A stretch of DNA of 41,730 bases from a virus: positions 1 to 41,730 of the IMG/VR virus record IMGVR_UViG_3300011440_000035; one strand, written 5' to 3'. Made by a program: the position numbers and the translations under genes. How positions within the stretch are numbered: the stretch's first letter is position 1; every line of letters starts with the position of its first letter. The notes under the pieces are model-generated. The model had not been told where the DNA came from and searched no databases. It saw nothing but the letters and a program-made list of their open reading frames with translations. Positions 2,323 through 41,730 of the stretch are shown one piece after another.

Positions 2323-2576
2323 TGCCAACTCCACGAATTACGCCTGCGAAAGAGTTGGCAGAAAGTCTTTGGAAACAAAGAGACAGTCTGGGTTGGGACA
2401 AATACGATCCAGACTATGAATACTTTCTTGGCAATGCTATCCCCGAAGTGCGCAAGGAAATCCTTGCGTTGCTGGAGTGTGAGTGCGACCGGTGCGAAGT
2501 GGAGGACCATTGTTGTGAAAGCTGCACTGTGCGTAGAAAACTCATCGCGACCATTCGAGAGGCAAACGAGCCATGA
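2322..2576 (+). CDS. Cys-rich small protein, ITPAKEL family
   Basis: An 84-aa protein starting at ATG 2322 (TGATG overlap with paralogue A, AGGAAGGGG just upstream). A GTG three bases earlier is an alternative. The N-terminus has RITPAKEL; the C-terminus has EILALLECECDRC followed by HCCESC and a final IATIREANE. The gene at 39476-39871 shares ITPAKEL, IIALLEWEMKKC and LQTIRDAD, including 20 of 21 identical bases over ITPAKEL, so they are paralogues. Cysteine spacing suggests metal binding. It is wedged between two large paralogues and overlaps the next by ATGA. Confidence 0.7.
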   Translation: MPTPRITPAKELAESLWKQRDSLGWDKYDPDYEYFLGNAIPEVRKEILALLECECDRCEVEDHCCESCTVRRKLIATIREANEP

Positions 2577-3745
2577 ACTGGGCGCGGGATTCGTTGATAG
2601 GTGCGCCTTTCGGCGGTCAAGATCCCTTGATCATCTTGGGCGGCAACGGAATCATCGGAAATGCCATGATCGGGACATGGCGGCCCTTCGCGAACAATTC
2701 CCCATGGAACACTCTTATCCCAGCAAGTCCAGCAATTCACCAGCACTCCTCGCAGATCATCATCAAGTGCAACACCGTTGCCAACAAGATTCAATTCTCT
2801 CGCGACTACAACTTCCCACTATGGGTGGTCGATTCCAGGGACCTCTCTCCGCACCGTTTCGCCATCATCGACCCAAACCGCGGCGGAAACTTTTTCGACT
2901 TTTGGGATAACCCCGGGTTCCCGAACGGAGACGACAAGACAGACGTTCAGATCCCGATCTTGGAAGAGATGTGGGCAGAGCCCACAACCGATGGACACAT
3001 CATCATTCTCGACCGCGCTCCCCATCCGCCTGGCCTCGCCGATCCAAACGGCCCCCCCTTGGAGCTGTTTACCCTTATGGGCTATGAGATGTCGCGATAC
3101 TCCTGGCATACCCCAGATGTGTGGGCGACGACGTTCAATGTCTGGAACGTCACCTCAACCGGACCAGGCTATTCCGATCTGGTCGGGTTTCGGTGGGAGA
3201 ATCGAGGCGGTCGAGGATCCGGGTATCCCGCACTTGCTGGTATGCTTCGCCCGGAAGAAGTGGAAGAAGACAGCATCCGTCACGCCTTGGTGTTTACATT
3301 TGAAGGGGTGAAGGTCCACGCAACCGAGGAGGCCGTTTTCTACTGGCCGCCGGCTTGCCGATCGGATGACCCGACAGACAACCCAGCCGACGATGGAGAC
3401 GAATGGCCAGTCTACGGAATGCTATTCCAACTAGATCCCTCGAAGACAATCTCTGACTTGGACGGAGTTGTCAGCGGAACGCCAACATCCTCCACAATCA
3501 AGGTGTTCCGGTGCCTTCAAGAATACGGAATGTATTTCGGTGACTTCGGAGGCGGAGGAATCAAAATACAACGCCAGAGATTGCATCCATCGCTCGCCTC
3601 TGGCAGTGCCGCCGACAAGGCTCTATGGGAGGGCCGGTGTCCTGGAATGATTGACCAAATCGCACAGATCCCGACAACATGGTTTAGGGTGATCAACACG
3701 ACGGTTTCTCCGTGGAATGCTTTTCTTACCCTAAAATCCGATTGA
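2573..3745 (+). CDS. Paralogue B of unnamed DGHI/EYGM family
   Basis: A 390-aa protein starting at ATG 2573 (ATGA overlap). It repeats the landmark series of the 1384-2322 product: TWRPFANNSPWNT, PLWVVDS, EMWAEPTTDGHIIILD, YEMSRYSWHT, RGGRGSGYPALAG, MLRPEEVE, RHALVFTFEG, PPACRSD, PVYGMLFQL and EYGMYFGDFGGGG. It is longer through a Gly/Ile-rich N-terminal extension (residues ~8-32) and internal loops after residues ~90 and ~260. The two copies have diverged well beyond a recent duplication. Function unknown; two copies separated by one small gene suggest they work together, perhaps as a hetero-oligomer. Confidence 0.8.
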   Translation: MNWARDSLIGAPFGGQDPLIILGGNGIIGNAMIGTWRPFANNSPWNTLIPASPAIHQHSSQIIIKCNTVANKIQFSRDYNFPLWVVDSRDLSPHRFAIIDPNRGGNFFDFWDNPGFPNGDDKTDVQIPILEEMWAEPTTDGHIIILDRAPHPPGLADPNGPPLELFTLMGYEMSRYSWHTPDVWATTFNVWNVTSTGPGYSDLVGFRWENRGGRGSGYPALAGMLRPEEVEEDSIRHALVFTFEGVKVHATEEAVFYWPPACRSDDPTDNPADDGDEWPVYGMLFQLDPSKTISDLDGVVSGTPTSSTIKVFRCLQEYGMYFGDFGGGGIKIQRQRLHPSLASGSAADKALWEGRCPGMIDQIAQIPTTWFRVINTTVSPWNAFLTLKSD

Positions 3746-4629: not shown

Positions 4630-4660
4630 TGGGGACGAGCATTACCCGATACTCGTCCCA
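4630..4660. terminator. Inverted repeat at convergent gene ends
   Basis: TGGGGACGAG and CTCGTCCCA form a 9-bp stem with one bulged G and a 12-base loop. It lies where the rightward operon (stop 4621) and the leftward fibre gene (stop 4642-4644) meet. It has no clear T-run, so it may be a weak bidirectional terminator or an mRNA 3'-end stabiliser. Confidence 0.35.
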
Positions 4661-6873
4661 TTGTAGTAGACCCCACCGATTGAATTGGCCCAGGTGGTGG
4701 AGTCGTACCCTGATAGAATGCCGAGCGCTGTACGATCGGACGCATTGTTCACATTCCAAGTACAAGAGAGCGGACCCGTTCCGAACTTGACAGCGCTCGC
4801 CATCCAATTCTCTTTCGCCTTCTGAAACACAAGGCGCGCCCGCGCCTCAGATGGGTTCGATACCTCCATGCAAATCATTCCCCACGCCGTCGTGGAGTTC
4901 ACAGTCAAGTTGATAGCACTGGCCGTCTCGCCTGAGTTGCGTCGCATCCCCTCGGTGCGCGAGTCCGGGGTGGCGAAGTTGGCATTGAAGGTGGTAAACC
5001 ATCCTCCCGGGGCAGCGAGATCATCTGTGCCGCCAGATCCGTTACCGACAGCCAGAACTCCCATGTTGATCGCGAAGGCAACCGGCATGGTGACCCCCGG
5101 CGTGGTACCAGCCAATCCCGAATTAGTCGCCAGTTGCTGAACACCATTGACTGTGCGAATTAAGTTTGCTGCGGTCATGCCCGGGTAACCAGGAACGCGC
5201 CGGAAAGAAAGCGTGCAGCCAGTTGCGGTTACACCGCTTGGGCAAAACGTAACTGACCCCGAGACACTTGTGGCCGGCGCTTCGGCCCCAAAGAGGTAGA
5301 GCTTATCCGCACCTGCATTGTAGGAGACCGATGCAAGAAGCTCCATTCCGAGTCCCCAGGTATCAGTCATCGTTCCAACGTCCGTGCAGCCGGTTGCATT
5401 TACCCACACAAAAACCAAGTCATTGGCAGTCGGGGTAATTGCGGAGGAGGTGTACCCACCAGCCGGATTGTTTGTCGAGCTGTTGGAAACTTGAGAGGAA
5501 CCGTCCGTTGTGTTCGCGGCGAAGTGACCGGACTCGAGCGTGATCCCGTCCGTATCTTGCGGAACCTGAGCCTCAGTAAGGGCACCCACGTTGCAAAGAA
5601 GTGCTTTAGAAGCGCCTACCGACGCCTTGAAAGTGGTCTTGAACGCCGCTACCATCGCGATCCAATCTGCCTGGACGAGTGCTAGATCCCCCTCTACCCA
5701 TTCATCTGCAGTTCGATAGTCCACTAAATACGAGTTCGGTAGAGTGGGTTGCTGTTCATCGGCGAACAGGCCGTCAAAGAACGTCAAGTCCGTATTGTTC
5801 AAAATGTAGGTGGCAATCGTCGAACCAAGGAGCGCTGAAGGTCGAACATGATAGATCGTCCCCGCGGTATGCTCTAGGCGCGCTGCACCAATGTGCCAGT
5901 AAGCGCCCTCCGCTCCGAACACTGCCGCCACTGCTGTACGCAGGCCGGAAAAATATGCCGAGCCCGATGCTAGAATGACCGAGGAAGTTCCGTAGAATAG
6001 AACTGACGCCGCCGCGTTGGGTGCTGGAGATGTGTTGTTGAAATTGGTTTGGTTTATCGACGGATTGCAGATATAAACGTCCCGCTCTGCCCATCCAGGG
6101 GGTGGCGTGTTCGGGAAGATGTGCGTGGACTGCACTAAAGTTAACGACGTGCCCTGCTCCGCAAAAGTGGCATCGATGGTATGCGCTGCCGTTACGTTGG
6201 TAAAGTCGTAGAAGATCGGAACCCCAACTGAAGCGGCGTCCACCTCCACGTCAAAGATGTCACAGAGAGCGCTGGCCGCAATCGTATAGCTTTGGCTCGC
6301 GCCGTGGTTCACCGCAGTTGTTCCAAGCGGTACAATCGTTCCGTTCGATCCTTGAGTGGACACGATATTGTATGTGTCGATGGCAAACGATGAGGCAATA
6401 GTGTGATTGGCCAGAACATTCGTGAAGTTGTAACTCGTAACAGCGCCTACCGAAACACCGTCTACCAGCACGTCCAAGATGTGGTAGTTCGCGTTGTCGG
6501 TGATGGTGTACAACTGCGAGCCGCCAGCATTGACCACGGTTGCGCCAAGTGGCGAGATCGTTCCGTTCGGCCCAGTCGATGCAGTGATGGTGTAAGTGTC
6601 AATGGCAAACGTGGCCGAAATCGTATGATTGGCCTGCACGTTCGTAAAGTTGTACGTTCCAACAGCGCCGACTGACACACCATCGACTAGAACATCGAGG
6701 ATGTGATAGTTCACGTTGTCAGTGATGGTGTACAACTGCGAGCCACCGGCCGCAATGACTGTGACGCCAAGCGGGGATACCGTCCCGTTGGCGCCGGATG
6801 TTGCTGTGATGGTAAAAGTTGAGGAAATTTGATTGCCTCGTCCGTGGCCCACGCCAAGTTTCCTGCCACTCAT
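4642..6873 (-). CDS. Tail-fibre-like protein with InlB-type repeats
   Basis: About 743 aa. Residues ~20-240 hold three ~74-aa repeats of the divergent InlB B-repeat/Flg_new_2 type (NGTxxPLG, GGSQxYTI, DVLVDGVSVG, YxFTNVxANHTI). Residues ~300-460 resemble a glycoside-hydrolase-like barrel segment (FFDGLFADEQQ, DGITLESGHF). From ~465 onward comes a beta-sandwich domain like the one at 9809-10510, with a similar ending (WGMICMEV versus WGVIVLEA). The repeats probably project a receptor- or glycan-binding tip. The start is ATG 6873; a GTG 3 bases earlier is possible. A candidate terminator sits just upstream. Confidence 0.75.
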   Translation of the reverse strand: MSGRKLGVGHGRGNQISSTFTITATSGANGTVSPLGVTVIAAGGSQLYTITDNVNYHILDVLVDGVSVGAVGTYNFTNVQANHTISATFAIDTYTITASTGPNGTISPLGATVVNAGGSQLYTITDNANYHILDVLVDGVSVGAVTSYNFTNVLANHTIASSFAIDTYNIVSTQGSNGTIVPLGTTAVNHGASQSYTIAASALCDIFDVEVDAASVGVPIFYDFTNVTAAHTIDATFAEQGTSLTLVQSTHIFPNTPPPGWAERDVYICNPSINQTNFNNTSPAPNAAASVLFYGTSSVILASGSAYFSGLRTAVAAVFGAEGAYWHIGAARLEHTAGTIYHVRPSALLGSTIATYILNNTDLTFFDGLFADEQQPTLPNSYLVDYRTADEWVEGDLALVQADWIAMVAAFKTTFKASVGASKALLCNVGALTEAQVPQDTDGITLESGHFAANTTDGSSQVSNSSTNNPAGGYTSSAITPTANDLVFVWVNATGCTDVGTMTDTWGLGMELLASVSYNAGADKLYLFGAEAPATSVSGSVTFCPSGVTATGCTLSFRRVPGYPGMTAANLIRTVNGVQQLATNSGLAGTTPGVTMPVAFAINMGVLAVGNGSGGTDDLAAPGGWFTTFNANFATPDSRTEGMRRNSGETASAINLTVNSTTAWGMICMEVSNPSEARARLVFQKAKENWMASAVKFGTGPLSCTWNVNNASDRTALGILSGYDSTTWANSIGGVYYNGTSIG

Positions 6874-6888
6874 CACACACCTCGAGGG

Positions 6889-30351: not shown

Positions 30352-30546
30352 CTAGTTCACACTCGGCCCACATTGTGGGCGTATAATCATTTCCATGAAC
30401 ATCTCATACCGATGCTTCTCGAGTACACTGATCATCTTCGCCATGTTCTGAAAGCGCGTGATCTCGTACCAGATGAAGTAGTACACCGGATCAACCGGAT
30501 CAACGTAGATGTCAGCTGTTGACATTGGCTCGCTCCATTCGTTCAT
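30352..30546 (-). CDS. Small hypothetical protein, 64 aa
   Basis: It begins at ATG 30546 in a TGATG overlap with the giant gene stop. Acidic N-terminus, an aromatic centre (DPVYYFIWYEIT) and a Met-rich helix (NMAKMISVLEKHRYEMFMEM). No family recognised. The coupling makes translation likely. Confidence 0.55.
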   Translation of the reverse strand: MNEWSEPMSTADIYVDPVDPVYYFIWYEITRFQNMAKMISVLEKHRYEMFMEMIIRPQCGPSVN

Positions 30547-33500
30547 CAGTACCCCCGAGCCTTGGCCCATTCATGATACCAGTGTCCCATAATGCCTTGC
30601 TTTTGGAAGTAATTGTTTCCGTAATTCACGAAGGGGCAGTCATATCCACCGTCCCCAAAATGTACCGGCCCTCGGATCAAGTCGTTGGCGAATGGTAGGC
30701 TAACTCTGCTGATCATACTCGAGGAGAGTACGTTCCAGAAGTAGACGCAGGTCAGACCGTCACCGATTCCCGAAGGCGCTTGGCAGAGGCAGGTACAAGG
30801 GTTTTGGTGCGAGTCCTCACCCCACTGATAGAACATTCCCATAAACGTCACCGTCGTTGGATTCTGGCAGTTAACGTCTCGGATAGTCCTAGACCGCGGC
30901 CCTGCCGCGTATGTCATCCCATGCGTGGAGTAGTTATTCGCCAGGGTTAGCGTTACGTTCGCGTCGGTAAACCGATTCCACCGAGTTTGGATGCGGTTCG
31001 TCTGATACAGCCCGTTGGCAAGAAACGCGAGCATCCAAGGCTTCTGCTGCCACCAGTCGGTATCGCACCCCAACGCCTCGGGATCCTCATTCCAGTGGCC
31101 GGACCAACGCGCAGCGTTCACGTCCACGCATCTCTTCAGGTCCGTCCAGCGCGTAGTGGTCGGCTCAAAGTCGCAGATCATCGCCGCCCAGTTGATGAGA
31201 TTGGCGACCGCGCGGCCTTCTCCATCTGAGAATTCGTCCGCGCCCACCCCGTTCACGAAAGTTACACGGTCGTGGATCATGGTCTTTTTACGGTTCCAAT
31301 CCTCTTGCAGGAATGGGCTGCCCGTAATCATCGCCACCGGCAAGAGAGCCAATCCGTGGCAGTACCCACCCACCGGCTTTTGATTTGATCGCCCTATGTT
31401 GCCAAGACCACTCGATCCATGTGTCGTATGCGGGAAAATAATCCCGTTCTTTCGAGCCTCGAAATCATAATCCACGTTGTAACTGGCCTGCTGGTCCATG
31501 TGTACCTGCTGCTCGATCGACTTCCACGCCGAGTCAGCGTACGCGTATCCGTTGAGCGAATCGCTTGCCACGCCAGCGATGGACCAGAGGAACCAGAGAT
31601 GCGCCAACTCGGTCTCGTATTGCTGTCCACCTCGGCAAGCGTCGATGGTCGGGCCAGCGGAGCCATCAAACTGTCGGTAGCAGTTCCCGAACATGAGAGG
31701 TGACTTCCACCACGAAGCGGGTGGGTTCTCAGTTTGGACGCGCCGCGACCACTCGCGCGCGTGATGCTCAATCACCGACAAAAGCGAGTCCGGGGAATTC
31801 CAGGCCGCCCCTCGATGCTTGACAAGTACATCCGTCCATGGCCACGCCTTGGTCGAGATGTATTCGTCGGCCGGCTGGAGCACCATCGGAGGTTCCATCC
31901 CCTGGCCTTCTCCGAGCTCGAAGCGGAGGCTCTCGCCAGCGCGCCACCGCCCACCATAGTCGTACTGCTCGCCAGACGGATGGTCGTAACTTCCCGGGTG
32001 CCAGACCGAAACGATCGAGGTGTCCGCACCCGATCCCAAGCCCATGTCTGCAGCCCAGCGAATGCGCATGGTGTCACCCGTCTCGCGAATGAAGCGCACC
32101 GATGCGGTCGTTTCAGCCGCAACGTCGCCCCCCCAGTTGCCAGCGTTTAGTTGCCAGTTAGTGGCCCGCTTCTGATTGCGGATCGACACCCAAGACCTGA
32201 TCGTCCCGTCTGCCCAGTAGTCGTGATAAACGCGAATCTCCATTGCGCCAGGCGATCCTAGGTATGTACCCCATCCGTTCGTGGTGTCGTGGAACGCTCG
32301 GCGAAGGATTCGGCCCGTAACTGGCTGTGGTGTGTTCTCGACTTGAGCGCGGGTGAGATCGAATAGCGCCGAGTCGGCCCCCTGATACTTAAAGCGGACA
32401 TTGAAGTTGGGCGGTTCCGAAGTAGTCACCGAATCCGCCGTCTGCGCTGCTGCCGGGATATGTACCTGCCACGTTCCAGAGTGCGTCCACTTCGTTGCCA
32501 TCTGACAGGTGCGCAAGGACCCATCCGGCCAGCACCAGAAGCGCAACGGCTCCTTGGGGTCGATGGTCGAGCTCGTGGCGAACTGCGTGTTGATCACTTC
32601 GCCCGCGGTATCGCGCAACGCCAAGCCGTTGCCCGATGCACAAACCGAGGAATCAATGGATCCTTGAGGAAAGCCCACGCAGAAGATCGAATTGCCCGTT
32701 CCTTTGACGACAATGGTCGCCTTGGTCGCCGGAGTGCCCGTCGGAATCTGCCACGAGCACGGCAAGTTATCCACCGCCTCGTTCGGCTCCCCGTCAGGAT
32801 CATTCTCGAAGATGTTGCAGTTGGTGGTATCGACGAGCCCGCTTCCGCCAGTGGTCGTCCCGAGCACGCGCCCCTTGTTCGACCATGATGTTTTGTCCCC
32901 CTCATGGAACCAGGCAACGAAGGCGACCGTATCCGATGCGCCGGCGGCCAGGGTTTCAGCAGCGACAGAGCGCAGCAACGAGTCATGCGCGGTGGTGCCG
33001 TCGAATGCTGAATTCACCGTGAATAAACGCGAGGTCACGTTGCGCACCGAGTCGAGCCCCGAGGTCGCGGGGAAGCTGGACCCGATTGGGTTGCGCACGT
33101 TCGGTCGAATGAGCGGCGCTGTCCCCATGTTCTTGACAATCGTGGTGCAGGGGACGGAGCGCCGCGTAGCGACTCCACCCACCGGACCCACGATCTGAGC
33201 GCCGGCAATGATTGGGGTAGAGAGTAAAGGCGCGGCGCAGAATTGATTGCTCGGTGTGCCCTGGAGAAAGTGCGAAGCCGACACCGGAAGGTTTCCGAAC
33301 CCGCCCGAAGTCGCATTTGCCCACACCCGATTGGAGAAGCACTCATTGGCCCCATGGGTGACGCGAATCTTGTATTGCAAGATTGTGTACTGAGCCGGGA
33401 ATGATCCTGGGAATTGCGGGCTGTCTACCGAGCCCTCCGGCGCCATAGAAATAATCGTTCCCAGTGATGCGTTGGTATCTTCCCCCGTCCATCCTGGATT

Positions 33501-34286
33501 GGCAATAACCGACGCCGTTCCGCCAAAAACGAAGGGGGGAACCAGCACGGTGTAGTTTCCACCAGTGATGTAATTGGCAAGCGTGTCAGGAATGGAACTC
33601 GGCTGGATCAGTACCATGGGATGCTCCCCACCGGGTGGGGTAACATTCCATATCACTATCTGCATAATTAAGTCGCTGTGAGTCGCATCCACGTAGGTAC
33701 GCTCCGCCACAACTTGGCTTATCGCCATCATCCCGAGCGGAGTCTCAACCGGGAGCTTCATCGGTGGAGGAGTTGAGGTTTCATCAACGCCACCCGATCC
33801 CGTAACCCGCGCAGAGAAGGTGAATTCCTCGAGCGAGTCGGAGGATACCTCCACTACGTAGCGAAGCACCGCAATCTGTCCGGGGAGTAGCGAGTTGGAT
33901 CCGTGTACCAAATTCGAGCTATCCGCGGCACCCGTCCACGTCGTGTCTGCGTGAATATCAGCAGACTTCCCACCTTCGAGCCGTGGCTTGGAAATGATCG
34001 AGTAGGTGGCTGGATCCGCGATGTGGTTAACCAGCGTGTCCAAAACGGCAATCGTCGAGCACACCACCGCCGACTTGTTGACGAGCAAGTGCGAGACGAT
34101 CAGTTGGAAATGACGCTCGCCAGCGAAACTTGCTTGGTACGATGTGTGCACCGAGAGACGGGAATCGGAAATTGGGTGCGACGAACCGGACGTGATATTC
34201 GCCGCATCAACACTCACAAAACAAAAGGCGAGACAGACCGCAAGAGCAATCCATCTCGCCAGATTCTTTGCCACCACCACCCCCAC
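30546..34286 (-). CDS. Giant exported protein, ~1246 aa
   Basis: The frame starts at a GTG (34286), with several further GTGs directly after, so the exact start is uncertain. An N-terminal Sec signal (ARWIALAVCLAFCFVSVDA) is clear. The first ~560 residues are several Ig/beta-sandwich-like domains with cysteine pairs. The rest is Trp/Tyr/His-rich, with DYWADGTIRSWVSIRN, HLWFLWSIAGVASDS, FPHTTHGSSGLG and HGLALLPVAMITGSP. This resembles an alpha/alpha-toroid polysaccharide lyase or similar carbohydrate enzyme, but I cannot identify a catalytic triad. Placed upstream of terminase, an odd location. Predicted to act in the host envelope or outside. Confidence 0.7.
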   Translation of the reverse strand: MGVVVAKNLARWIALAVCLAFCFVSVDAANITSGSSHPISDSRLSVHTSYQASFAGERHFQLIVSHLLVNKSAVVCSTIAVLDTLVNHIADPATYSIISKPRLEGGKSADIHADTTWTGAADSSNLVHGSNSLLPGQIAVLRYVVEVSSDSLEEFTFSARVTGSGGVDETSTPPPMKLPVETPLGMMAISQVVAERTYVDATHSDLIMQIVIWNVTPPGGEHPMVLIQPSSIPDTLANYITGGNYTVLVPPFVFGGTASVIANPGWTGEDTNASLGTIISMAPEGSVDSPQFPGSFPAQYTILQYKIRVTHGANECFSNRVWANATSGGFGNLPVSASHFLQGTPSNQFCAAPLLSTPIIAGAQIVGPVGGVATRRSVPCTTIVKNMGTAPLIRPNVRNPIGSSFPATSGLDSVRNVTSRLFTVNSAFDGTTAHDSLLRSVAAETLAAGASDTVAFVAWFHEGDKTSWSNKGRVLGTTTGGSGLVDTTNCNIFENDPDGEPNEAVDNLPCSWQIPTGTPATKATIVVKGTGNSIFCVGFPQGSIDSSVCASGNGLALRDTAGEVINTQFATSSTIDPKEPLRFWCWPDGSLRTCQMATKWTHSGTWQVHIPAAAQTADSVTTSEPPNFNVRFKYQGADSALFDLTRAQVENTPQPVTGRILRRAFHDTTNGWGTYLGSPGAMEIRVYHDYWADGTIRSWVSIRNQKRATNWQLNAGNWGGDVAAETTASVRFIRETGDTMRIRWAADMGLGSGADTSIVSVWHPGSYDHPSGEQYDYGGRWRAGESLRFELGEGQGMEPPMVLQPADEYISTKAWPWTDVLVKHRGAAWNSPDSLLSVIEHHAREWSRRVQTENPPASWWKSPLMFGNCYRQFDGSAGPTIDACRGGQQYETELAHLWFLWSIAGVASDSLNGYAYADSAWKSIEQQVHMDQQASYNVDYDFEARKNGIIFPHTTHGSSGLGNIGRSNQKPVGGYCHGLALLPVAMITGSPFLQEDWNRKKTMIHDRVTFVNGVGADEFSDGEGRAVANLINWAAMICDFEPTTTRWTDLKRCVDVNAARWSGHWNEDPEALGCDTDWWQQKPWMLAFLANGLYQTNRIQTRWNRFTDANVTLTLANNYSTHGMTYAAGPRSRTIRDVNCQNPTTVTFMGMFYQWGEDSHQNPCTCLCQAPSGIGDGLTCVYFWNVLSSSMISRVSLPFANDLIRGPVHFGDGGYDCPFVNYGNNYFQKQGIMGHWYHEWAKARGY

Positions 34287-34745: not shown

Positions 34746-35663
34746 TTAACCCGTGGCCTCTTTCTCGTACTGCGCTCGCAATTCATCCTCGCTCACCCCA
34801 AGGCGATCGGCAATGGATTTCCCGCTGTCGATCGGGTCAGGCTTGCCATTCTTGACGATCGCCGGATCATTCAGGCAGGCGAGCGCCTTCTCCAGAGTAA
34901 TCTTCCCTTCGGGTAGCGTGGAGATCGCTCTCGAGAAGAAGGCAGAGAGCTCACCATTGGCAACCTTCTCGGTCAAGACATGCGCCGCCGAATCGATAGC
35001 GTCCCAATCCCACTTTTGAACGACATACCCCTTGCCGAGCGGGTGCACTGTACAGAAAGCTTCCACCACCTCCCTCCGGATCATGGCCGCTTCCTGCTTC
35101 CTAGATCCTGAGATCTCGAGAGGGGGGCGTAGTTCTTGCTCTTCGCGCGTGCGCGCGCGCTTGACTTCTCCTTCTTCTTGAACTTTAACTTGAACTTTAA
35201 CTTGTGCGGCGGATTCGTGGAGTGACTCCACGTTTTCGCGGCGGATTCGTGGAGTCACTCCAGCATTTTGCCGCCATTCTTCTGGAGTGACTCCCGCGGA
35301 ATGCTCAACACCTTGAGAAAATACATACTTAGAGTCTTCCTCTCGGTCGGTTCGTACCTTCTGGTGATCCATGAACTTCTCGATGTAGATGGCCGAACGG
35401 CCATTGTCGTCGATGACAAGCCTCCAGAACTGATTCCGAACCAGGTCATAGAGAAGAGTCTCTATTGTCTCGTGGGTCCACCCGAAGAAGCTGGTTCCGA
35501 CTGGGAAACAGACCATGGCGAGCTCGGCGATGTTACCCGGCAGGCACCCTTGAACATCAGCGTGGGGAAGAGACAGAAACCAGGCAAGGGCGGGAGTTGG
35601 TCCTGCAATGCCAAGTCGTCGGTTGGTTGAGATCGACTTCGAGAGGAACCTACCCCTTGCCAT
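34746..35663 (-). CDS. Replication initiator/replisome organiser
   Basis: 305 aa. MARGRFLSKSISTNRRL and the winged-helix-like segment that follows (LAWFLSLPHADVQGCL, LPGNIAELAMVCFP) are typical of phage replication initiators that recruit helicase. The middle (~110-180) is a variable repeat-rich linker (GVTP...ESLHESAAQVKVQVKVQEE) encoded by the origin-like iterons. The C-terminal third (RKQEAAMIRREVVEAF onward) is a helical domain similar to those that bind helicase loaders. The ATG 35663 overlaps the HNH gene's end by 14 bases. Confidence 0.75.
   Translation of the reverse strand: MARGRFLSKSISTNRRLGIAGPTPALAWFLSLPHADVQGCLPGNIAELAMVCFPVGTSFFGWTHETIETLLYDLVRNQFWRLVIDDNGRSAIYIEKFMDHQKVRTDREEDSKYVFSQGVEHSAGVTPEEWRQNAGVTPRIRRENVESLHESAAQVKVQVKVQEEGEVKRARTREEQELRPPLEISGSRKQEAAMIRREVVEAFCTVHPLGKGYVVQKWDWDAIDSAAHVLTEKVANGELSAFFSRAISTLPEGKITLEKALACLNDPAIVKNGKPDPIDSGKSIADRLGVSEDELRAQYEKEATG
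35181..35294 (-). repeat. Candidate replication origin (iterons in rep gene)
   Basis: Two 25-bp copies (35206-35230 and 35238-35262) differ at one base and each holds the near-palindrome TGGAGTgACTCCA. A third, diverged copy with TGGAGTGACTCC is at 35283-35294. Copies 1 and 2 repeat every 32 bp. On the other side lies an AT-rich tandem 12-mer AACTTTAACTTG (35181-35192, 35193-35204), like a DNA-unwinding element. Inside an initiator gene this mirrors the lambda O origin. Confidence 0.65.
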
Positions 35664-36153
35664 CGGGCACCTCGTTCAAGAGCGCACTCGCCCCGAAGTA
35701 TTGGACCGCCGCCCGGTTGTATGACCGTGCCGCCTCGAGCTCGCTCAAGAACACGCCCAGATGCCGCTGCCTCTCCTTGGTTCGGATCTGTGCCGTCCAT
35801 TTCCTTCTGGTCTTGTGCCAGCTCACCCCCTTGTAGATCGACGAGCACGGATTTAACTGCTTGAAGCGGTTGCCTTGATTCAAGCTGGCCGGCCCCGGCT
35901 TGAGGTTCTTGCGCTGGTTGTTCAAGCCATCGTGGTCGTCGTGGTCTACAACCGTAGACCCGCCGTTCACGCCACAGATCTGCCGGTGCATGTAGACGAG
36001 GTCGCGCCCCTCGCGTCGAATGGCGTAGCAATATTCACCTCTAACTACCAGGAGGTGCCACTGGAACTTGGAAAGCCATGCCTGATCGGCATTGTCTACG
36101 GTGCTGTACCCGAGGACTGCGCCGCGGCGGTCCACCAGAGGAATCTTCTTCAC
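35650..36153 (-). CDS. HNH endonuclease with AP2 DNA-binding domain
   Basis: 167 aa from GTG 36153, chosen because GGGAGCGGGAAGA lies just upstream and the protein then begins KKIPLVD, the usual family start. HNH: MHRQICG, VDHDDHDGLNNQRKNL. AP2: SIYKGVSWHKTRRKWTAQIR, FLSELEAARSYNRAA. A classical phage HNH-AP2 homing-type endonuclease, free-standing. The stop overlaps the replication gene start by 14 bases. It may be selfish, or it may nick DNA near the origin. Confidence 0.8.
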   Translation of the reverse strand: MKKIPLVDRRGAVLGYSTVDNADQAWLSKFQWHLLVVRGEYCYAIRREGRDLVYMHRQICGVNGGSTVVDHDDHDGLNNQRKNLKPGPASLNQGNRFKQLNPCSSIYKGVSWHKTRRKWTAQIRTKERQRHLGVFLSELEAARSYNRAAVQYFGASALLNEVPDGKG

Positions 36154-36203
36154 TCTTCCCGCTCCCGTACCCATCCCCACATTCGCCTGCGGAGGGGCAA
36201 ACG

Positions 36204-37538: not shown

Positions 37539-37769
37539 ATGTTTGACCTACGCAAGTTCGCTAACAACCTGATCCGCACCGTACACGAAGCGCAAGCCTA
37601 TCGGGAAATGCCCGAGCCCGAGGACCGCACCTGCTGCGAATGCGGTAAAGCCTACACCCTCGATAGGCCAGCAGGCTACGTGCCTACCAAGTGGGACGCC
37701 CTGTGCAACCGCTGCCTGGGCTCCGATGTGGAGATCACCGAGCAGGATAGGAAGCAGGTGGGGCGATGA
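37539..37769 (+). CDS. Zinc-ribbon-like protein, 76 aa
   Basis: Start follows GGAGGAA. Two cysteine pairs (CCECG and CNRC), ~22 residues apart, form a likely zinc ribbon (residues ~32-59). The N-terminus is helical (RKFANNLIRTVHEA). First gene of the rightward operon; it may be a small DNA- or RNA-binding regulator. It overlaps the next gene by 4 bases. Confidence 0.65.
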   Translation: MFDLRKFANNLIRTVHEAQAYREMPEPEDRTCCECGKAYTLDRPAGYVPTKWDALCNRCLGSDVEITEQDRKQVGR

Positions 37770-38608: not shown

Positions 38609-39100
38609 ATGTCAGCCGAACCCATGCCGCTGCCACAGATTTACATGATCCAAGACGCCGACCGCGATTTGCGACGCATCGGTAAACTACTGCGACAGAA
38701 GGACTCAACTCGCCAGTGGCTTGAGCAACAGATGCAATCCATTGATACCGAGATCGAGATGCTCGAATCATCACTCTACGCATTCGGGCATCAGGCCCGG
38801 CAAGTCACAGGTAAAGCCACGATCCCACTTGCGTCAGGCCGGCTGCGCATGACCGCAAGTCGGAATAGGGTGGAGAAGCTCCCCGAGTATTACCTGTGGG
38901 CCGAGAAGACATTGGTGGAGCCCAGGTTTTGGAAGCGCACGCTCGTGGAGTCCGAGGCGTGGTTGAGGGTGAAGTGGTCTGACGATGGCCGCGCCTACGA
39001 TCGCGTAACAGGCGAGGAGATTCCCGGGCTAGGTAAGCTCAAGCCGGAAAAACCGTTCTCGCTCTCATATGAAATGAACGGCAACGAAGGTGGGAAGTGA
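38609..39100 (+). CDS. Gam-like nuclease-inhibitor candidate
   Basis: 163 aa, GGGAGGAATC before ATG 38609. Helical N-terminus with Gln/Arg-rich segments (LEQQMQSIDTEIEMLESSLYAF), then the strand GKATIPLASGRLRMT and WKRTLVESEAWLRVKW. This mixture (long helix, then 'I-L-A-S-G-L' strand) is typical of Gam-like host-nuclease inhibitors. No alternative found. It adjoins the SSB-like gene. Confidence 0.5.
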   Translation: MSAEPMPLPQIYMIQDADRDLRRIGKLLRQKDSTRQWLEQQMQSIDTEIEMLESSLYAFGHQARQVTGKATIPLASGRLRMTASRNRVEKLPEYYLWAEKTLVEPRFWKRTLVESEAWLRVKWSDDGRAYDRVTGEEIPGLGKLKPEKPFSLSYEMNGNEGGK

Positions 39101-39279
39101 GGGCGAAGGTGATTGCAGTGAAGAAAGGCCCGGCCGGGACGTGGCGCTTCCAAGTGCATATGCCGCTTGCATGGCGAGCTCGGCTCAAGGCTGCGGCCAA
39201 ACAGGACCAGCGCAGTGTAGCATTCTGGCTTCGCCAGGCGGTGGAAGAGAAACTTGAGCGCGAGAGGGGGAAGAAGTAA
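39097..39279 (+). CDS. Ribbon-helix-helix-like protein, 60 aa
   Basis: GTG 39097 overlaps the previous stop. An N-terminal strand (TWRFQVHMPLAW) is followed by RLKAAAKQDQRSVAFWLRQAVEEKLERE, typical of an Arc/CopG-like DNA-binding protein. A likely repressor of its own operon or of host genes. Overlaps the next start by TAATG. Confidence 0.6.
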   Translation: MRAKVIAVKKGPAGTWRFQVHMPLAWRARLKAAAKQDQRSVAFWLRQAVEEKLERERGKK

Positions 39280-40794: not shown

Positions 40795-41315
40795 TGCGCA
40801 TCGCCTATGCCGATCCTCCATATCCCGGCTGCGCCAAACTTTATAAGGACCAGTCCGATTACGATGGGGAGGTGGATCACAAAGCGTTGATTTTCAAGCT
40901 GTACGCAGAGTTTGATGGTTTTATTTATCACACAGCGAGCACATCTCTTCCACAAATACTTCCATGGTTTGGCGGCGATGTCCGCGTAATGGCCTGGGTC
41001 AAACCCTTTGCTGCTTTTAAGCGCAATGTTTCCGTCGCCTACGCTTGGGAACCGGTTATCATTAAGCCAGTGCGCAAGCCAGTCGTATCGCACCGAATCG
41101 TAATGCGTGATTGGATTAGTCAATCCATCACTCTGAAAAAGGGCCTGGTTGGCGTTAAGCCTGAAGCGGTGTGTCGTTGGGCGTTTGAAATGGTTGGCGC
41201 GGAACCAGATGACGACCTGATCGATTTGTACCCAGGTTCCGGAGCTGTATCCCAAGCCTGGGGAAAATGGAAAACGAGCATGGGACCGCAAGGGAAAGGG
41301 GAGGGAACGACGTGA
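40794..41315 (+). CDS. DNA methyltransferase, beta-order
   Basis: 173 aa from GTG 40794 (overlaps TAG). The N-terminus has YADPPYPG (motif IV, residues ~4-11), the C-terminus DDLIDLYPGSGAVSQAW (motif I, ~146-162), so the motifs are in the beta-class order (IV before I). It resembles small phage N4/N6 DNA methyltransferases. The catalytic DPPY suggests N6-adenine. It may protect phage DNA from host restriction. No partner nuclease is visible. Confidence 0.75.
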   Translation: MRIAYADPPYPGCAKLYKDQSDYDGEVDHKALIFKLYAEFDGFIYHTASTSLPQILPWFGGDVRVMAWVKPFAAFKRNVSVAYAWEPVIIKPVRKPVVSHRIVMRDWISQSITLKKGLVGVKPEAVCRWAFEMVGAEPDDDLIDLYPGSGAVSQAWGKWKTSMGPQGKGEGTT

Positions 41316-41341
41316 GCAACACCAACCAAAAGGAGAGCAAA

Positions 41342-41730
41342 GTGAAAATCACAGTTCCGTATCTGCGTAGTGGTGTCGGAGCAACCCCAGCCGATGGTGG
41401 ATGTGTGCTCCAGATTGTGGGCTGGATCAAAACTGGGGGGTGGACCGATTCGCCAGAATGTGTGCATCCGGTGTTCCAGAAACTTGCCATCACAGCCAAC
41501 GACTCACTCGACAATGCACAGCGACAGGAATTGATTGACCTGATTCCGCAACTCATGGACACCGCGACAGACGACAAGAAGGTCTCGGTGAAGCTGGCGA
41601 TCTTCTGCGCCAAGCGCGTACTTCCGCTCTTCGAGAAACACTCCCCGCACGATGCGCGACCACGCCAAGCGATCGAAGCGGCGGAGCGGTGGTGTGACGG
41701 ACGCACCACCGCCAACGCCGCCTACGCCGC
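41342..41730 (+). CDS. Ala-rich protein, N-terminal fragment
   Basis: The start is GTG 41342 with AAGGAG ~8 bases upstream; an earlier GTG at 41312 overlaps the previous stop and is also possible. Conserved-type N-terminal domain: GGCVLQIVGWIKTGGW, DSPECVHP, VSVKLAIFCAKRVLPLFE and ARPRQAIEAAERW, then Ala/Asn/Tyr repeats at the edge. The family (Imm-5-like in some annotations) occurs in phages and actinobacteria. The C-terminal part is at the left edge of this window. Function unknown. Confidence 0.75.
   Translation, partial: MKITVPYLRSGVGATPADGGCVLQIVGWIKTGGWTDSPECVHPVFQKLAITANDSLDNAQRQELIDLIPQLMDTATDDKKVSVKLAIFCAKRVLPLFEKHSPHDARPRQAIEAAERWCDGRTTANAAYA

Follow-up and report, generated by a model that had tools for sequence, protein, structure and literature searches.

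The window, by which we mean the whole stretch of DNA that was analyzed, is a 41,730-base linear virus record, possibly a fragment, with portal, terminase, and tail-tube genes. The minus strand at 34746-35663 carries P0001, a replication initiator gene of 305 aa. Codons 1-112 (35328-35663, minus strand) encode its N-terminal domain, which is modelled as a winged helix and is the proposed binder of the repeats described below. Directly upstream of the initiator gene lies an HNH endonuclease gene (35650-36180, minus strand; phrog_99, E 1.1e-25), with a weak AP2 match. Elsewhere in the window, we noted a tandem duplication of ~222 bp, 76% alike, at 6369-6789 inside a 744-aa ORF (4642-6876), an ORF (41267-41728, plus strand) that runs off the right end and encodes a domain resembling the Imm5 immunity domain (PF21805, E 1.3e-10), and a 1246-aa ORF (30546-34286, minus strand) for which neither Pfam nor PHROG gave a match at E<=0.1. 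Among the window proteins scanned, which represent part of the ORFs of this linear and perhaps incomplete record, we recognized neither a helicase nor a loader.

The repeats are embedded in the initiator gene where it encodes the linker between domains. This part of the gene holds three copies of an 11-bp palindrome, GGAGTSACTCC, and a search of the 41,730-base window returned no further exact copy. In gene order and all on the minus strand, iteron 1 occupies 35284-35294 (GGAGTCACTCC on the coding strand), iteron 2 lies 33 bp further on at 35251-35261 (GGAGTGACTCC on the coding strand), and iteron 3 follows after another 32 bp at 35219-35229 (GGAGTCACTCC again). The first two are read as GVTP, and the third falls in another frame, in which it is read as VESLH. 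Iterons 3 and 2 are contained in two 32-bp direct repeats (35206-35269, no strand assigned). Their 25-mers at 35206-35230 and 35238-35262 differ by one base, in agreement with the earlier note, which had described two 25-bp copies with one mismatch and a 32-bp period and a third, diverged copy with the same palindrome, located here at 35284-35294. That note had also seen the repeats in the protein as GVTP...RREN units. GVTP is indeed repeated, from the palindromes at 35284-35294 and 35251-35261, while RREN occurs once and the 25-bp copies are read as different peptides (GVTPRIRRE and VESLHESAA), since a 32-bp step does not preserve the reading frame. When the gene was recoded synonymously 20,000 times, each time for an unchanged protein and with codons sampled according to their usage in 17 window ORFs, two identical-arm 11-bp palindromes arose in 581 recodings and three arose in none. 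This result, together with the copy in another frame, argues that it is the DNA that has been kept, and not the peptide.

After the palindromes in the gene direction comes an AT-rich tandem block, the proposed unwinding element, at 35177-35204 on the minus strand. Tandem Repeats Finder (TRF) reports it as 2.3 copies of the 12-mer CTTGAACTTTAA, and on the coding strand it is made of AAGTTAAAGTTC repeats. The earlier note had listed an adjacent AT-rich tandem 12-mer within a region whose left edge was put at 35181; the block is there, beginning 4 bp earlier. By calculated duplex stability, the tract adjoining the iterons is easily unwound, since only 7 of 41,703 28-bp windows are weaker than the one starting at 35172, a start picked as the best within 35160-35210. 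Iterons and AT-rich block together make up the proposed origin core (35177-35294, minus strand). GC skew, which had been suggested as a check around 35.2 kb, lent no support: the cumulative minimum falls at 37,716, ~2.5 kb off, near a switch of gene direction, and therefore says nothing either way.

P0001 alone had no Pfam, PHROG, or NCBIfam match at E<=0.001. At E<=0.1 it matched zero Pfam families, so it has no RepA_N Pfam domain, and against phrog_16167, phrog_1408, and phrog_2149, which are PHROG phage replication-initiation proteins, it had no match even at a limit of E 10. In a single hhalign comparison, residues 1-146 were aligned at 94% probability (E 1.3e-7) with a profile of nine related phage proteins, several of which are annotated as replication initiation proteins. 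With the first 112 residues as a phmmer query, which excludes the linker, the best five of 115 N-termini were L261, L252, L263, L029, and L256, at E-values from 2.7e-8 (L261) to 1.5e-4 in a 116-sequence set, the fifth tying with two genes of other subfamilies. All five carry GAGTNACTC iterons in the linker; L261, L252, L263, and L256 match phrog_16167/1408/2149, and L029 matches only phrog_4016 (0.0035). As judged by these sequence comparisons, the P0001 N-terminal domain is related to the PHROG phage replication-initiation families.

An AlphaFold2 model from a 59-sequence alignment reached a mean pLDDT of 86.3, with helices and strands in the order seen in winged helices; a single-sequence structure, at a mean pLDDT of 37.2, was discarded. 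Foldseek with the former model ranked many winged helices, at E-values no better than 6e-3; none was prominent, and the second was 4pt7, a plasmid initiator. As regards a possible RepA_N-type winged-helix fold, the match to 4pt7_B had prob 1.00, E 7e-3, and TMq 0.49, and many winged helices score alike. The best VIA-align hit (Z 7.4) was a Fur-like peroxide regulator, and a PDB sequence search with P0001 gave three matches, all at chance level. Back-translated peptide patterns revealed no direct P0001 relatives in viral_contigs, and a single, weak inovirus tblastn match was set aside. P0003 as a query matched only contigs of its own virus.

Relatives were also sought through the repeats. A first scan of viral sequences returned nine stretches in which the starts of two GGAGTNACTCC are separated by 17-47 bp; three represent one initiator gene (L003, L008, and L010) and the remaining six lie in repeat-rich proteins. 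The same pair was found in 63 stretches of a genome scan, 62 of them outside initiators, with L029 as the sole initiator (judged by the longest overlapping ORF shown). Spacing was counted at 61 of the 62 non-initiator loci; in 21 of these it differed by no more than 1 from a multiple of 11, a proportion near the expected 27%. We rejected the GGAGTNACTCC pair as a stand-alone marker because repeat proteins and dispersed repeats also carry it. Independently of the motif, N-terminal protein similarity to L008 recovered L074, a Rhodobacteraceae phage gene that is annotated as a replication initiation protein and has two GGAGTAACTCC in its linker; L074 as a query led to no further relatives. The last viral scan used a pattern settled on once L029 and L074 had been seen, a pair of GAGTNACTC units at a distance of exactly 11 bp. 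Ten of its 13 stretches fall within genes that match PHROG replication-initiation or helicase-loader families, namely L251, L252, L256, L258, L259, L261, L262, and L263, plus L257 and L260, whose proteins are identical to those of L252 and L258, respectively. The PHROG matches of L261 and L262 are to "replication initiation O-like" families. L254, with its start cut off, has the same layout without a match, and no ORF of at least 100 aa covers L253 or L255. In L253 (11117-11137, minus strand), the phased GAGTNACTC units were seen by eye to span an apparent stop codon of a short frame, and the DNA block may persist there where the coding frame is broken.

We compared 13 distinct genes: those of the window, L008, L029, and L074, and nine from the GAGTNACTC scan. 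The iterons in these genes are spaced by 10-11, 22-23, or 32-33 bp, and 12 of the 13, all except L008, have copies in different reading frames. Downstream of the iterons, AAAGT/AAGTW words occur at least six times in the window, L251, L252, L256, L261, and L263 and once or twice in L029, L259, and L262; L008, L074, L254, and L258 have none and carry tandem blocks of other short repeats. Words of the AAAGT/AAGTW block are spread over different reading frames in the window, L251, L252, L256, L261, L262, and L263. In the comparison of N-termini, L008 departs from the trend, in that its nearest N-termini belong to other subfamilies, and L258 has no match. L258 (3431-4045, minus strand) and L260 carry another Pfam domain at the N-terminus, Lin1244_N (E 1.3e-9), yet share the GAGTNACTC iterons, after which comes a GGGAA-type block, so that origin words are common to different domain families. 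DnaC- and/or DnaB-type genes adjoin the relatives in F10, JBD44, IFTN1, IME307, and Mock2, and eight ORFs near the L256, L261, and L262 initiators had exonuclease and resolvase matches and no helicase or loader. The earlier note had proposed an iteron-type origin in the initiator gene and had named relatives lacking the repeats, or carrying them outside that gene, as evidence against it; the relatives carry them inside the gene, in the same initiator linker, which supports the proposal.

Two other initiator subfamilies, A4 and A5, were sampled by protein only. From 160 viral loci and 11 starting genes, seven short or cut genes were dropped to leave 164, and removal of near-duplicates left 109 (11 starting, 38 A4, and 60 A5). 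Clustered AATCC words (at least three) were observed in 58 of the 60 A5 genes, 53 of which have them in different frames, and a TGATTC block in 25 of the 38 A4 genes, with different frames used in 24 of the 25. By eye, the L104 initiator gene (2501-3580) has an HNH-like stretch in frame in the linker, before its TGATTC block. The word-anchored phase test chose the best phase among periods of 8-13. The DNA upstream of the block has a period of 10 bp in 53 of the 57 block-bearing A5 genes (of 60) and of 11 bp in 31 of the 33 block-bearing A4 genes (of 38). Phase scores upstream were 0.458 for A5 and 0.425 for A4, against 0.247 and 0.267 downstream, and the highest in 200 synonymous shuffles were 0.370 and 0.354. 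A strong tandem score was reached by 41/98 initiators and 1/98 control genes from the same loci. The A5 iterons are of three main kinds, and the nearest N-terminal neighbor shares the kind in 48 of 56 genes. As the initiator genes are related, such counts are not independent events. The word-anchored test replaced a per-gene upstream-repeat test, in which at most 3/60 shuffles reached the observed count for 3/11 starting, 21/38 A4, and 34/60 A5 genes; that test is weak because the generic tandem score sometimes lands on the iterons themselves.

We consider it very probable that the block is a theta-type replication origin inside the linker-coding part of its own initiator's gene. The P0001 N-terminal winged helix would bind the palindromic GAGTNACTC iterons, whose placement at multiples of ~11 bp puts them on one face of the helix. 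The resulting nucleoprotein complex would open the adjoining short-period AT-rich block, and a helicase would then be loaded at the opened DNA. What the sequences show are the repeats with their position, phasing, and independence of frame, their retention in the genes of related initiators, and the kinship of the N-terminal domain with that family; the steps from binding through to origin activity are what we infer. It seems improbable that the palindromes are instead operators at which the initiator or another phage regulator controls early-region transcription, with replication starting elsewhere. Although palindromes suit dimeric regulators and the window has a gene for an Arc-like protein at 39097-39279 (phrog_3178, E 0.0035), these palindromes sit ~370-445 bp inside the gene and not at a promoter, are accompanied by a low-stability tandem block, and are kept as a pair in the initiator linker in many viruses.

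Neutral slippage in a linker under little protein constraint would be in keeping with the great variation among linkers of this kind and with the GVTP-rich repeat proteins that bear the same word. We regard this origin of the repeats as highly improbable, given that the GAGTNACTC word and the 11-bp phase recur in distantly related initiators, that copies lie in different frames, that counts are above those of synonymous shuffles, and that the phase is 10 or 11 depending on the subfamily. Least credible of all, and very unlikely, is that the repeats are the target of the HNH endonuclease encoded directly upstream. HNH genes are also directly upstream of the initiator in OP947163, Gsput1, and JBD44, but the initiators of F10, IFTN1, and Mock2 have similar repeats next to other upstream neighbors, and to our knowledge homing sites are not expected as phased arrays.

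Taking the replication-origin reading of the block together with the other subfamilies, we raise the possibility, at slightly less than even odds, that phage initiators of this winged-helix superfamily share one hidden design, comprising one-turn iterons, a filament, a DnaA-trio-like block, and an iteron type matched to the domain. The iteron period would be 10 bp in one subfamily and 11 bp in others, the initiator would form a continuous helical filament on the one-turn iterons, and the short-period block (AATCC, TGATTC, AAAGTAAAG, GGGAA, and others) would act as DnaA-trios. The iteron type would track the winged-helix domain, and origin specificity would therefore be readable from the initiator gene alone. 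If this is true, sequence could be used to find origins, and the sites read by their initiators, in many uncultured phages, and the correspondence between winged helix and iteron could be tested on many natural pairs. A single stretch of DNA would serve as origin and coding sequence at once, the 3-bp rhythm of codons yielding to one of 10 or 11 bp.

The principle of an origin within its initiator gene is already known from lambda O, SPP1 gp38/oriL, and pSK41 RepA_N. The likeness to lambda O drawn in the earlier note agrees with a published account, which for lambda and the Stx phages describes an origin in the middle of the initiator gene, with inverted-repeat iterons beside an AT-rich tract, and an O protein with affinity for A- and T-rich single strands as well (PMC7466680). 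The repeat required by lambda O is an imperfect inverted one of 19 bp, whereas the units in the window are 11-bp palindromes at multiples of ~11 bp, and P0001 itself has no O-family match, though its relatives L261 and L262 do. SPP1 oriL lies within gene 38 and has direct repeats and an AT-rich unwinding element (PMC6316719); the window shares with it repeats and an AT-rich element inside the initiator gene, a likeness of layout. In the RepA_N replicon of pSK41, a winged-helix N-terminal domain binds four Rep boxes located centrally within rep, and the linker encoded by the ori is dispensable (PMC5703833). Among many winged helices, the structure modelled for P0001 matches 4pt7, a staphylococcal plasmid RepA according to PMC7145576, but P0001 has no RepA_N Pfam match. 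Our searches of the open-licence literature listed no paper on one-turn phased iterons within phage initiator genes, or on such phasing together with a short-period block. We place the window as a distant member that has its own iteron class; one-turn phasing combined with a short-period block appears to be a general variant.
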